From the NCBI RefSeq assembly GCF_000166135.1, contig NC_014666.1:3534001-3598000 (forward strand): a stretch of 64,000 nt of DNA, in the 5' to 3' direction. Within the stretch, counting starts at the first letter, position 1, and each line of letters starts with the position of its first letter. Shown piece after piece: positions 57,004-64,000 of the stretch. Position numbers and translations under genes: made by a program. Below the pieces are notes generated by a model that was given only the letters and a program-made list of their open reading frames with translations, ran no database searches and was not told the DNA's origin. Source of the stretch: Pseudofrankia inefficax. Lineage in GTDB: Bacteria > Actinomycetota > Actinomycetes > Frankiales > Frankiaceae.

Positions 57004-57681
57004 GTGTCAGGACAACCGTTGCGGGAGCTGGTCGAGCCCGGCTGGGCCGACGCGCTGGAGCCGGTCGCCGAGCGGGTCGCGGCCATGGGCGACTTCCTGC
57101 GCGCCGAGATCGCGGCCGGGCGTACCTACCTGCCGGCCGGGCCGAACGTGCTGCGCGCCTTCCAGCAGCCGTTCGACGAGGTGCGGGTGCTGATCGTCGG
57201 GCAGGACCCGTACCCGACGCCCGGCATGGCCATCGGCCTCAGCTTCGCGGTCGCGCCCGACATCCGGCGCCTCCCGGGCAGCCTGGTCAACATCTTCCAG
57301 GAGCTGCGCGCCGACGTCGGCGTGCAGGAGCCGTCGAACGGTGACCTGTCGGCGTGGACCGGCCAGGGCGTGCTCCTGCTGAACAGGGCGCTGACGACGG
57401 CACCCCGCCAGCCCGGCTCGCACCGGGGCAAGGGCTGGGAGGAGATCACCGAGCAGGCGATCCGGGCGCTGGCCGGGCGCGGCAAACCGCTGGTGGCGAT
57501 CCTGTGGGGCGCGGACGCGCGCGGCCTGCGCCCGTTCCTGGCGGGCATCCCGACGATCGAGTCGGCCCACCCGTCGCCCCGCTCGGCGGACCGTGGCTTC
57601 TTCGGCTCCCGACCGTTCAGCCGGGCGAACGACCTGCTGCTGAGCCAGGGCGCCCAGCCCGTCGACTGGCGCCTGCCCTGA
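57004..57681 (+). CDS. ung: Uracil-DNA glycosylase (family 1)
   Basis: 225 residues from GTG. Ung excises uracil from DNA. Motif A is [19 protein letters not shown] (catalytic Asp at about 66), with the usual His after Tyr replaced by Pro, a form common in actinobacteria. [10 protein letters not shown] and the leucine-loop HPSPRS complete the site. About 190 bases downstream it converges on the XRE regulator, with a 75-bp palindromic repeat between. Confidence 0.95.
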
Positions 57682-60515: not shown

Positions 60516-60544
60516 AGGATCGGTGCTGAAAGGATCGGTGCTGA
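60516..60544 (+). repeat. Direct repeat upstream of nuclease operon
   Basis: AGGATCGGTGCTGA at 60516-60529 is repeated at 60531-60544, one base apart. A possible regulatory site ahead of the operon starting at 60581. Confidence 0.6.
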
Positions 60545-60580
60545 CGGGGTAGCGGGGCGTTGGCGCGCGAAGGGCGGGTT

Positions 60581-61783
60581 GTGCGGCACGAAGGCAAGAC
60601 GGAAGCGCGGCTGGAGCGGATCCGGGGCGCGGTGAGCCCGCGGCGGCACAACGCCCGGACGATCGCCGCGCTGACCAGCAATCCCGGGTGCGGCCGGCGG
60701 GCCGTTCTGGACGCCGCGGGGGTCGACAAGGACGGGCTCGCGGGGCGCGTCGGCTACCCGGCCGGGTTCGGGCAGTCTCCCTTCGCGATCGTGCGCGGCA
60801 ACGTGTTCGAGAAGCAGGTCAAGGCCGACGGCTGCACCGAGCTTCTCCGGCTGCTGCGCGACCAGCTTGGCCTTGACCTCGGCCCGGCCTCCTACCGGGA
60901 TCTCGGCGCGTCGGGCGAGGTCGCGGCCGGCGGGGCCCCGGGGGAGGGAGGTCTGGACGCGCGGCACGCCGCCTCGGTCGCGGCCCTGACCGAGGCCGCC
61001 AGGGACGCCGCGGCCGATCCGGCTGCCCCCGGAGCCGTGTTCGACCACCCGCTGCTGCGGCTGGACGTCGCCGGGCAGGAGGTGTCGCTGGAGCCGGACC
61101 TGGTCGCGGTCCAGCCCGGCGGGGTCTGTCACATCGTCGAGATCAAGTCCTTCCCGGTGATCGACGGGCAGGCGGACGGGGAGAAGGTCGCCGCCGCGGC
61201 GATCCAGGCCGCGGTCTATGTGCTCGCGCTGCGGCGGCTGCTCGGCCGGGCCGAGGCGGTCGCCTACGAGGTGGTGCTCGTCTGCCCGAAGGACTTCTCC
61301 AACACACCGATCGCGACGAAGGTCGACGTCCGTCGGCAGCTGCTGATCCTGGAACATCAGCTGGCACGGCTGACCCGGATCGACTCCCTCCTGGACGCGC
61401 TCCCCGACGACCTGCGCCTCGATCTCGCCGTCGACGACGCCGGAGTGCCGGTGCTCGACGCCGCGGCCCTGACCGGCGCGCTGGGGAAACTAGCGGCCCG
61501 TTACGCGCCCGGCTGCCTTTCGACCTGCGAGCTGGCCTTCTTCTGCCGGCACGAGTCGGCGGGGCGTACGGCGACCCTCGGTGTCGGGGTCCGCGAGGAG
61601 CTGGGCGGTGTCGAGACCGTCGCCGACGCGCTCGGCCTCGCGCACGGCACCCGCGCGCCGGACGACGACCAGGCCGAGGCCGCGGCGAGGCTGCGTACCA
61701 CGGCCCGGGTCTACGCCGAGGTGCTCGCCAGCCTGCCGGCGCGGTCGCGGCCCGGTCCGACGCCGCGGGAGGGCGGGCCGTGA
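60581..61783 (+). CDS. RecB/Cas4-like PD-(D/E)XK nuclease with predicted Fe-S cysteine cluster
   Basis: 400 residues from GTG 60581; TTG 60560 is possible. The nuclease core is SLEPDLVAVQPGGVCHIVEIKSF (Asp at about 172, E-x-K at about 186-188), then AAAIQAAVYVLALRR as the RecB motif QxxxY helix. Cysteines are arranged as in AddB, Cas4 and Dna2: one near the N-terminus (NPGC, about 36) and three near the end (CLSTCELAFFC, about 308-318), so a 4Fe-4S cluster is predicted. It overlaps the next gene by GTGA. It would cut DNA 5' or 3' ends in concert with a helicase; the third gene provides a P-loop ATPase. Defence or repair is inferred from context. Confidence 0.75.
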   Translation: MRHEGKTEARLERIRGAVSPRRHNARTIAALTSNPGCGRRAVLDAAGVDKDGLAGRVGYPAGFGQSPFAIVRGNVFEKQVKADGCTELLRLLRDQLGLDLGPASYRDLGASGEVAAGGAPGEGGLDARHAASVAALTEAARDAAADPAAPGAVFDHPLLRLDVAGQEVSLEPDLVAVQPGGVCHIVEIKSFPVIDGQADGEKVAAAAIQAAVYVLALRRLLGRAEAVAYEVVLVCPKDFSNTPIATKVDVRRQLLILEHQLARLTRIDSLLDALPDDLRLDLAVDDAGVPVLDAAALTGALGKLAARYAPGCLSTCELAFFCRHESAGRTATLGVGVREELGGVETVADALGLAHGTRAPDDDQAEAAARLRTTARVYAEVLASLPARSRPGPTPREGGP

Positions 61784-63420
61784 GCGCCATCGGTGCGTAC
61801 GCGCGGGCGCGGGCCGCGGCGGTCGGCGTCGCGCAGCCGGTCGCCTCGGTGCGCCATCTGCACCTGTCCGAGTCGCCGCTGGTCCTGGTGCCGTTGACGA
61901 TGGCCGGCGAGGCGAACGCGCCGTTGGCGGCGCTGGTCGGCACGGCCGTGGACCGGCCGGTGCTGCTGGTCGTTCCGCAGCCACGGGACCGGTCCCGTCG
62001 GTTCCGTTTCGCCGACGAGCTCGCGGCCGTGCTGCTGGCCGAGGTGGCGCGGTGCGCCTCCGCCGGCTCCGAGCCGGTGAAGCCGCCGAAGGCCGCGCGG
62101 ACGCCACCCGCGACGGTGACCGAACCTGGTGCCGCGGCGACCGTTGCCCCGGACGACGGTGGCCAGGCCGCCGCCGCTGCCGCGGCCGGTGAGCTCGCCG
62201 AGGCGACGAGGTTCCTGGACGCGCCCCAGCTGCTCGTGCCGAACCGGGCCGGGGCCGACTTCGTGCGGCTGTTCGGCCGTTCGACGCGGTTCCGCTCGAC
62301 GGTGGGGGAGTACGCCGTCCCGGCCGGCGTGCCGCTGCTGGGCCGCTGGCTGACGTTCCTCGCCCAGCGAGCCGAGCATCCCGGGTCGTCCGCGCTGGTG
62401 GCGATGACGGAGGCGCTGGCCAAGCACTGGGCTACCGGGCAGAGCGCGCTGGAGGACGCCAACCTGGCGGCGCTGCTGGCCTGGATCGACCCGCCGCCCG
62501 GATGCACGGGTGCCGAGGCCGCCCGGCTGGCCGAGGATCCGGCCCGCTGGCCGCCGGCCGGGCCGACGACGGACCCGGGCTTCGACAACCGGGTGCTCGC
62601 GCCCGCGATCCGCGCCTACGACGAGGCCGTCGCCCAGTCCGCCGCGACGACCGGCGGCGGGCCCGAGGACCTGCGGGTCGCCAGGGCCGAGGCCGCGGTG
62701 GCCGACGTCCTGCGCGGTCAGCTCGAACCGACCTGGCGCCTGATGTGGCGGGCGGTCGACCTGCTGCGCGCGCTGCCGCCCGGCGCCTCCGTGGCGCGCC
62801 GCTGGGAGCAGGACCGGGCCAGGTTCAGCTCCTACGTCGCCTACCTGGCCGCCGAGGACGGCGGGCTGCCGCAGGCACGGCGCGACGGTGCCGTCGCCGC
62901 CGCCCGGCGCCTCGCCGTGCTGGAGCGTGAGCTCGCCGGCTACGAGGCCGACCAGGCCTTCGACGACCCGCTGGTGCTGGCGAACCAGCGGGTGACCGGC
63001 GAGGCGTTCGTCGGCCAGGTCGTCGGCGTCGAACGTGACCGCCGGATCGCGAACAGCCGCGGCACCCCGGTCACCCGGCCCCTGGTCGAGGTACTGACCG
63101 TCGACCCGGTCCGCCTCGCGCCGCGCGCGAAGGTCGAGTCGCCGGCGCGGCGTGGCCAGTTCGGCGAGATCGTCGATGTCCGGCCGGCCGCGGACGGGCT
63201 GCTGGTGACGCTGGAGCTCAGTGGCGGGATGGGGAGGTCCAAGGTTCCGCCCCCGGGCTCGGTCCCCGCCGAGGGCGAGACCCTCAGCTACACCAGCCTG
63301 CTGTCGGACGGCATGTTCTCGGCCGGGCTGCCGGCGCCGGAGGACACCCCGTGGACCCATGGTGGCCCGCCCAGCCCCTATGAGCCCACCGAGGACGACG
63401 TCCGGGAACGCTGGGAGTGA
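61780..63420 (+). CDS. Unrecognised protein of nuclease/helicase operon
   Basis: 546 residues from GTG, overlapping the nuclease stop. I do not recognise the family. The first ~65 residues are beta-rich (VRHLHLSESPLVLVPLTMAGEAN); a flexible Ala/Pro linker follows; then there is a region with RFLDAPQLLVPNRAGADFVRLFGRSTRFR and GVPLLGRWLTFLAQRAEHPG; the middle is long helical (AIRAYDEAVAQSA, QLEPTWRLMWRAVDLLRAL, RRWEQDRARFSSYVAYL); the last ~130 residues are beta-rich and might be OB-like or SH3-like. No catalytic motif stands out. By position it is a structural or DNA-binding partner of the nuclease and the helicase. Confidence 0.75.
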   Translation: MSAIGAYARARAAAVGVAQPVASVRHLHLSESPLVLVPLTMAGEANAPLAALVGTAVDRPVLLVVPQPRDRSRRFRFADELAAVLLAEVARCASAGSEPVKPPKAARTPPATVTEPGAAATVAPDDGGQAAAAAAAGELAEATRFLDAPQLLVPNRAGADFVRLFGRSTRFRSTVGEYAVPAGVPLLGRWLTFLAQRAEHPGSSALVAMTEALAKHWATGQSALEDANLAALLAWIDPPPGCTGAEAARLAEDPARWPPAGPTTDPGFDNRVLAPAIRAYDEAVAQSAATTGGGPEDLRVARAEAAVADVLRGQLEPTWRLMWRAVDLLRALPPGASVARRWEQDRARFSSYVAYLAAEDGGLPQARRDGAVAAARRLAVLERELAGYEADQAFDDPLVLANQRVTGEAFVGQVVGVERDRRIANSRGTPVTRPLVEVLTVDPVRLAPRAKVESPARRGQFGEIVDVRPAADGLLVTLELSGGMGRSKVPPPGSVPAEGETLSYTSLLSDGMFSAGLPAPEDTPWTHGGPPSPYEPTEDDVRERWE

Positions 63421-63555
63421 TCCGGGTGCCGGACCCGGTGCCCGCCCCGTTCGCGGTCCGTCCCGGCGAGGCGCCGGCGGGAGCCTGGCCGGCCCGGGAG
63501 CGCGCGGGGTGGCCGGCGGTGGCACGGTCCTGGCAAGGAAGGAGCGGCGGCGCAG

Positions 63556-64000
63556 GTGACGGATGGTGAGCGGGTGACGGCGCCGAGGGCCGGCGGGGAT
63601 GACGACCCGAAGGCGGCGGCCGACCGGGCGACCGAGGAGATCCTGGCCGACTTCCGGTCGGGCCGGCACCGCGGGGTCGTCGTCGACTCCCCGCCGGGGG
63701 CGGGGAAGTCGACGCTGGTCGTGCGGGCGGCGACCGAGTTCGCCCTGGCCGACGAGCCGCTGATGATCGTCGCACAGACGAACGAGCAGGTGGACGACCT
63801 GGTCGAGAAGCTGGCCCGCACGCTGCTCGACCAGGCGCCGGACCTCCGGGTCGGCCGGCTCGGCCGCGCCGGCTACGTGCCGCCGCCCCGGATCGACGGC
63901 CTGCCGAACGTCACGGTGGGCACCGACATGAAGTCGCTGGGCGAACCGCGGGTCACCGTCGCGACCGCCGCCAAGTGGGCCTACGTGAAGGACGCCGCCT
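63556..64000 (+). CDS. P-loop DNA helicase/ATPase (SF1, Dna2-like), 3' truncated
   Basis: The first 148 codons are visible from GTG 63556, with AAGGAAGGAG eleven bases upstream; GTG 63574 is an alternative. Walker A is VVVDSPPGAGKSTLVVRAA (about 45-60) and the motif Ia-like AQTNEQVDDLVEKLARTL follows, as in superfamily 1 helicases of the UPF1/Dna2 group. The gene runs off the right edge, so the Walker B and the rest are unseen. It follows the unknown gene after 135 bases and is likely part of its operon. Together with the nuclease it could make a split Dna2-like machine. Confidence 0.75.
   Translation, partial: MTDGERVTAPRAGGDDDPKAAADRATEEILADFRSGRHRGVVVDSPPGAGKSTLVVRAATEFALADEPLMIVAQTNEQVDDLVEKLARTLLDQAPDLRVGRLGRAGYVPPPRIDGLPNVTVGTDMKSLGEPRVTVATAAKWAYVKDAA

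Follow-up and report, generated by a model that had tools for sequence, protein, structure and literature searches.

NUC, MID, and HEL probably form a split Dna2-like machine

We analyzed a 64,000-nucleotide (nt) stretch of the Pseudofrankia inefficax genome (C1:3534001-3598000 of 8,815,781 bases, hereafter the window), which ends within a run of three genes that we call NUC, MID, and HEL. Together, these genes probably encode a Dna2-like DNA-end machine split into three proteins, which stands alone in core genomes and is joined in accessory loci by a further gene, CC, and by SbcD and SbcC, often near the Wadjet system. This reading is based on sequence families, motifs, gene order, co-occurrence, and linkage to Wadjet, all of which were observed. 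The three genes lie in the window as follows.

60560..61783, forward strand: NUC, a RecB/Cas4-fold PD-(D/E)XK nuclease, recognized from its open reading frame (ORF), conserved motifs plus four cysteines, and a fold match
61780..63420, forward strand: MID, a protein of 546 amino acids (aa) without a family in the libraries searched, characterized from its ORF, library searches, and a structure model
63556..64000, forward strand: the first 148 codons of HEL, a Dna2/UPF1-like superfamily 1 (SF1) helicase

The ORFs confirmed the initial annotation's description of three co-directional genes, the first two overlapping by GTGA. The MID stop and the HEL start are separated by 135 bases, and NUC, MID, and HEL likely form an operon and an old unit. 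The ORF list starts NUC at a TTG (60560); an alternative GTG at 60581 is, from sequence comparison, the likelier true start, because three relatives start at the matching MRHEGK. HEL is truncated by the window at 64000, and in the genome it is a 468-aa protein, open throughout (L009:3257-4663), that ends at window-equivalent position 64962.

NUC has the motifs and fold of RecB/Cas4-type nucleases

NUC contains the catalytic D...ExK and QxxxY motifs of RecB/Cas4-type PD-(D/E)XK nucleases. We built a NUC tree from 105 of 112 loci (L212 to L233 excluded; seven rows dropped as three duplicates, one short sequence, and three close relatives), which has long branches, above all that of L082. Residues E178, K196, Y220, C319, C323, and C329 are unvarying in all 105 rows, and D180, E194, Q216, and C44 are each kept in 104, the C44 exception being an ambiguous base. 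The ExK motif and the one-plus-three cysteine layout picked out by the initial annotation are thus conserved across the tree. Of the 104 rows that retain the four cysteines, 103 space the last three as C-x3-C-x5-C and one as C-x2-C-x5-C.

The structure model of NUC (predicted local distance difference test [pLDDT], 90.8) matched by Foldseek the putative exonuclease 3l0a (E value, 3.4e-4) and SSO0001 (6.3e-4), which we take to be of the Cas4 type, placing NUC in the RecB/Cas4-type PD-(D/E)XK fold. Weaker matches were obtained with the Argonaute-associated Cas4 family protein ACE1 and with RecE, MGME1, EXO5, and AdnAB (the latter four at ∼0.004 to 0.03). Window NUC had no match at E values up to 1 in Pfam, PADLOC, and NCBIfam and one weak match (0.21) in PHROGs, and searches against the sequences of solved structures returned only designed-repeat or chance-like matches; PDDEXK_1 of Pfam matched 5 of 43 NUC relatives (best, 0.0014). 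The four cysteines probably hold a 4Fe-4S cluster, as judged by analogy with Fe-S relatives of similar fold.

HEL is a UPF1-type helicase, and MID may complete it

The full-length HEL contains motifs I, Ia, II, III, V, and VI of UPF1/Dna2-like SF1 helicases, which bears out the SF1-like helicase that the initial annotation had recognized in the truncated gene. In 21 aligned rows, PPGAGK-T, DEAYQ, GDPGQL, LQG, and SRHR are invariant, and S52, R380, and E381 are nearly so. The corresponding profile matched SMUBP2 (4.8e-13), DNA2 (1.3e-12), and UPF1 (4.4e-6), aligning to SMUBP2 and DNA2 through motifs I, Ia, II, III, and V. In Pfam, HEL scored above the cutoff for AAA_11 and AAA_12, and UvrD families were absent among its 12 matches. 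Judged by its sequence, HEL is a Dna2/SMUBP2/UPF1-type SF1 helicase. We rejected the labels PLuB system helicase (NF040671; 48.1 bits versus an NCBIfam cutoff of 999), Mokosh MkoA (1.9e-9, with a best stretch of just 60 residues of a 1112-position profile), and IGHMBP2 (below cutoff or partial). In the draft genome represented by L032, HEL (L032:8779-10395) is frame-broken close to its C-terminal end.

MID was initially described as a 546-residue protein of no recognized family, and it remained so: window MID had no match up to an E value of 1 in Pfam, PADLOC, NCBIfam, or PHROGs, its relatives gave only scattered weak matches in Pfam (no family matching more than 2 of the 43 relatives), and the sequences of solved structures yielded only designed-repeat or chance-like matches. 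The MID model (pLDDT, 87.2) has a mixed N-terminal half, long helices at residues 266 to 289, 296 to 330, 338 to 357, and 370 to 395, and a C-terminal beta domain with strands from 409 to 505; a WTHGG tail is conserved. Its top Foldseek matches in the PDB are the UPF1-like helicases Sen1 (E value, 0.026) and senataxin (0.054). Helicases of this kind carry a stalk and a 1B barrel before motif I. Motif I of HEL starts at residue 45; HEL therefore has no room for these elements. We give moderate weight to the proposal, drawn from the model, that these missing elements, the stalk and the beta-barrel (domain 1B), are probably contributed by the C-terminal half of MID. As for viral carriage, an IMG/VR pattern scan with MID returned 15 stretches, none confirmed, and MID had zero matches in 50,697 phage records; these results are neutral for function.

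The similarity to UPF1, Sen1, and senataxin could also suggest an RNA-processing complex, since RNA is a frequent substrate of UPF1-like helicases; in addition, an NYN-domain gene lies downstream of the trio in the window's genus. However, the NYN neighbor cluster occurs in 9 of 112 loci, all of the Frankia type, and the RecB-fold nuclease and the SbcCD partners described below point to DNA, so we regard a role in RNA processing as very improbable.

The trio is conserved as a unit

A search of 41 genomes of relatives found MID in 13, comprising all 8 of the window's genus, all 5 of a second genus, and none of the 28 others. NUC was present in 69 of the 393 class genomes searched, in 16 of 396 genomes of a phylum sample, and in 98 of 101 from a single genus, presumed to be Streptomyces. 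Outside the class, G623 and G544 each have a diverged trio with the gene order unchanged. We also scanned one genome per species for 84,980 species; at least 567 of 598 stretches were confirmed, and the best 80, a named set biased to close relatives of the query, were analyzed. MID lay 3' of NUC in all 80 and HEL within the same stretch in 60. The 20 stretches lacking HEL comprised 3 at contig ends and 17 others, from 16 Micromonospora genomes and one Verrucosispora genome. Where HEL did not adjoin the pair, it was found elsewhere in all 14 genomes searched (12 of those 17 plus G114 and G206), and MID stood beside NUC in 132 of 132 NUC loci. The co-occurrence of the three genes with the nuclease cysteines, which the initial annotation named as supporting evidence, is borne out.

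We classified 133 loci, some of which represent the same genome twice (e.g., L028/L087, L034/L088, L027/L091, L077/L126, and L084/L092). CC accompanied the trio in 62, the trio was alone in 29, NUC and MID were paired in 20, and all six genes were present in 19; the remainder were single cases of CC, trio, and SbcD, of CC, NUC, and MID, and of CC only. In three Actinoplanes-type genomes (L134, L138, and L166), HEL lies ∼4 to 5 kilobases (kb) off on the opposite strand. Micromonospora tulbaghiae DSM 45142 has both a NUC-MID pair whose HEL is distant and a complete CC-NUC-MID-HEL-SbcD-SbcC locus (L105 and L158).

CC and SbcCD are optional partners of the trio

CC, an optional gene of ∼280 aa directly 5' of NUC, is present in 84 of the 133 loci. 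It had no match in Pfam or PADLOC, the family libraries against which it was searched, and its matches to solved structures were limited to weak coiled-coil and designed-protein ones. The search of the class detected CC in 22 of 393 genomes. All 20 strong matches adjoin NUC; the other two are a weak match in G277 and a partial match in G107, a genome without a NUC match, where the CC-like protein lies at L227:9878-10771. The parts of the system belong to known superfamilies, and NUC, MID, and CC are unmatched in the family libraries in which they were sought.

SbcD is adjacent in 20 of the 133 loci and SbcC in 19 of these, as identified by Pfam and by matches to SbcD and Rad50 chains of solved structure (SbcD versus solved SbcD, 3.2e-52). 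Seven of the 20 loci (L212 to L218) were added because their genomes had a second NUC copy, and two come from plasmid records; SbcD is partial and SbcC unmatched in L217, and the SbcCD region of L233 is annotated as short pieces only and may be broken. SbcCD follows the trio on the same strand in six loci (L090, L098, L121, L124, L136, and L158), whereas it is upstream in divergent orientation in the other fourteen (L069, L071, L081, L082, L149, L212 to L218, L232, and L233). On the NUC tree, which includes 11 of the 20 SbcD loci, the SbcCD label requires 5 changes, or at least 3 as judged by starred branches. L090, a locus with both CC and SbcCD, branches as sister to the Frankia-type clade in which the window falls (support, 98/68; unstarred branch), and L082, within the window's own family, has all six genes plus jet genes.

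The window's genome has an SbcD-like gene elsewhere (1.2e-113), as well as PDDEXK_1 genes resembling AdnAB, an identity that we infer from two neighboring long frames. Because of these genes, the window's lone trio is probably an additional, rather than the sole, end-processing enzyme.

In L069 (3675-6584), L071 (3797-6043), and L218 (13910-16147), an ORF of ∼745 to 970 aa, 72 to 81% identical among the three loci, stands directly 3' of HEL. This ORF, helicase-like by eye, is another optional partner. Some accessory copies are near contig ends, which may be chromosome ends: that of G810 is ∼23 kb from each end, that of G850 is 5.6 kb away, and that of G349 is 17 kb away; the loci concerned include L213, L212, and L071.

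Copies with SbcCD are linked to Wadjet

Queries with jet genes of Wadjet types I, II, and III gave matches at 12 of the 20 SbcD loci versus 1 of the 113 other loci (Fisher P = 4e-11), with the proviso that the queries were taken from SbcD loci and that controls with other Wadjet subfamilies may be missed. After clustering at 80% NUC identity, jet genes were present in 8 of 13 SbcD clusters versus 1 of 37 others (P = 1.9e-5), or in 7 of 13 (P = 1.2e-4) without L090, whose match is a 207-aa partial one at 29% identity near the locus end. The sole control match, in L101, covers 192 aa at 30% identity at the locus edge. PADLOC identified JetA2 and JetB2 in L149, L082, and L214, JetA2 in L218, JetA3 in L215, and JetC1 in L071. 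Among 109 proteins neighboring the 20 SbcD loci, the 25 listed of 88 matched families were 19 Jet and 6 PD-T4-6 families, and among 113 neighbors of lone or CC-only trios (12 of 20 chosen control loci), the 25 of 38 matched families that were listed included PD-T4-6 and no Jet family.

HEL or SbcC abuts jet genes co-directionally at nine loci from several families (L081, L082, L149, L214, L215, L216, L217, L232, and L233). In L232, a Streptomyces plasmid with NCBI annotation, SbcC and SbcD are divergent from CC-NUC-MID-HEL, and genes for DUF3375, DUF4194, an ATP-binding protein, and JetD directly follow HEL; a second plasmid, L233, has the same layout. The NUC proteins of L216 and L217 are 99% identical and neighbor Wadjet types I and II, respectively, so the pairing of the module with a Wadjet type was probably exchanged recently.

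We considered whether the trio is only a housekeeping complex for double-strand-break resection whose proximity to Wadjet is a by-product, both residing at variable chromosome ends and on plasmids. In favor of this view, NUC is nearly universal in presumed Streptomyces, the neighbors of the trio are conserved across the window's genus, and SbcCD is a repair nuclease. Moreover, several accessory copies are near contig or chromosome ends, and Wadjet itself is found at elevated frequency close to Streptomyces chromosome ends (PMC10482375). In contrast, the co-directional abutment at nine loci, the near-identical NUC beside two Wadjet types, and the single jet match among 113 other loci weigh against a by-product, and we consider this explanation rather unlikely.

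A stand-alone anti-phage or anti-plasmid defense system, acting wherever the trio is found, would account for the jet genes at SbcD loci and for other defense neighbors. In L121, the Shango genes SngB (2e-178) and SngC (5.5e-268) and a TerB-domain gene are directly 5' of CC, and L098 contains a type III restriction fragment and an nSTAND3/PDC-S73 gene. The near-universal presence of NUC in presumed Streptomyces nevertheless argues against a purely accessory defense role for core copies, and Wadjet families were not among the 25 of 38 matched families listed near lone or CC-only trios, making this alternative improbable. Of the known defense genes that the initial annotation proposed to look for nearby, SbcD-linked copies have Wadjet genes at 12 of 20 loci and Shango genes at one; core copies may serve repair, defense, or both.

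Proposed function of the split Dna2-like machine

In the split Dna2-like machine that we favor, HEL would be the SF1 motor, NUC the RecB-fold nuclease trimming strands, and MID the scaffold of a complex. Split over three genes, the order NUC-MID-HEL would repeat that of the Dna2 domains. In core genomes, which include the window's and nearly all of the presumed Streptomyces sampled, the trio, alone or with the cell's own SbcCD, would act on DNA ends in break repair and in the destruction of foreign linear DNA. In accessory loci, Wadjet would cut small circles, SbcCD would open blocked ends, and the trio would unwind and degrade the products. Wadjet cleaves small circular DNA and leaves linear DNA intact, according to a review (PMC10586767); what it would need is a partner that attacks ends. 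Cutting of blocked ends and hairpins by Mre11-Rad50 complexes is described in PMC6265447. The accessory trio is perhaps a linear-DNA arm beside Wadjet, and the arrangement hints at a shared job of the trio, SbcCD, and Wadjet in destroying foreign DNA.

A stronger version of this proposal is possible but tentative. CC-NUC-MID-HEL-SbcD-SbcC might be a self-contained bacterial "Mre11-Rad50 plus split Dna2" resection machine, repeatedly attached to Wadjet of any type, in a locus that cuts circular foreign DNA and destroys linear products and invaders. The lone trio of the window would then be a streamlined core form, in line with the retention of CC and SbcCD in L090, its nearest tree relative outside the Frankia-type clade.

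Several observations weigh against the split Dna2-like machine and its link to Wadjet. No jet gene was found in the stretch examined at 8 of the 20 SbcD loci (L069, L098, L121, L124, L136, L158, L212, and L213). Conversely, 1 of 4 DUF3375 loci and 3 of 44 DUF2397 loci adjoin NUC in the 101 presumed-Streptomyces genomes, and the majority of the Wadjet loci checked are without the module. CC is absent from all 8 genomes of the window's genus, and CC, SbcCD, and Wadjet were not found beside the window's own trio. No Foldseek match of MID reaches 0.001, and unrelated folds rank close behind Sen1 and senataxin. A fused NUC/MID/HEL ORF is absent from the 133 loci. Finally, enrichment of SOS boxes upstream, scored with a typed actinobacterial SOS-box consensus, was not found (4 of 112 windows versus 8.0 expected), and SOS regulation was rejected on that count.

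Comparison with known systems

The trio resembles Dna2 in combining a predicted Fe-S RecB-like nuclease with a UPF1-type SF1 helicase whose profile matches DNA2. Dna2 works with Mre11-Rad50, and the SbcCD neighbors of the trio suggest a similar partnership. In contrast to the single chain of Dna2, the trio comprises three proteins, and NUC has C-x3-C-x5-C, whereas Dna2, like Cas4, has a C-x2-C spacing. We know of no counterpart in Dna2 of the N-terminal half of MID. NUC shares its fold and the one-plus-three cysteine layout with Cas4-type nucleases, including ACE1, and differs from them in that window NUC is unmatched in Pfam and PADLOC.

AddAB and AdnAB likewise combine a bacterial helicase with a RecB-like Fe-S nuclease, and the NUC model matched AdnAB chains (E values, 0.005 to 0.03). 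However, AddAB and AdnAB have UvrD-type SF1A helicases fused to a nuclease, whereas the helicase here is of the Dna2/UPF1 type, without a UvrD family in Pfam, and is encoded by its own gene; we therefore rejected membership in this group. Of the "split Dna2/AddAB-like machine" initially suggested, the Dna2-like form is thus the better fit. The helicase and nuclease of HerA-NurA are from families unrelated to those of the trio. Archaeal HerA-NurA is similar in that a helicase and a nuclease work with Mre11-Rad50 (PMC4641729 and PMC5715905). Wadjet (JetABCD), of types I, II, and III, is a neighbor of the module in accessory loci and no homologue. The trio does not represent JetABCD subunits, since NUC and MID were without PADLOC matches and none of the 8 PADLOC matches of HEL was Jet.

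We did not recognize a description of the three-gene Dna2-like arrangement or of its pairing with Wadjet in full-text literature searches, whose coverage excluded most subscription papers and all preprints. If our interpretation is correct, a three-gene Dna2-like helicase-nuclease, which almost every genome sampled from one large genus contains, joins the bacterial end-processing enzymes; on two public plasmids, the annotation of its members does not go beyond "hypothetical protein" and AAA ATPase. If the link to Wadjet is functional, the fate of plasmids after a Wadjet cut becomes a testable question, as does whether defense loci bring their own degradation arm.

Other features near the trio

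The 14-nt direct repeat reported by the initial annotation is present 5' of NUC.

60516..60544, forward strand: 14-nt direct repeat, two exact copies, unconserved

Exact 14-mers recur 14 to 20 nt downstream at 61 window positions, and relatives have one exact copy each in L025 and L026 and none in six others. We rejected the repeat as an element; it is unremarkable and probably meaningless. The NYN-domain gene 3' of the trio (L009:5715-7412; window-equivalent 66014-67711) keeps its synteny in the window's genus. About 3 kb 5' of the trio, the window contains a uracil-DNA glycosylase-like ORF (57004-57681), named by eye.

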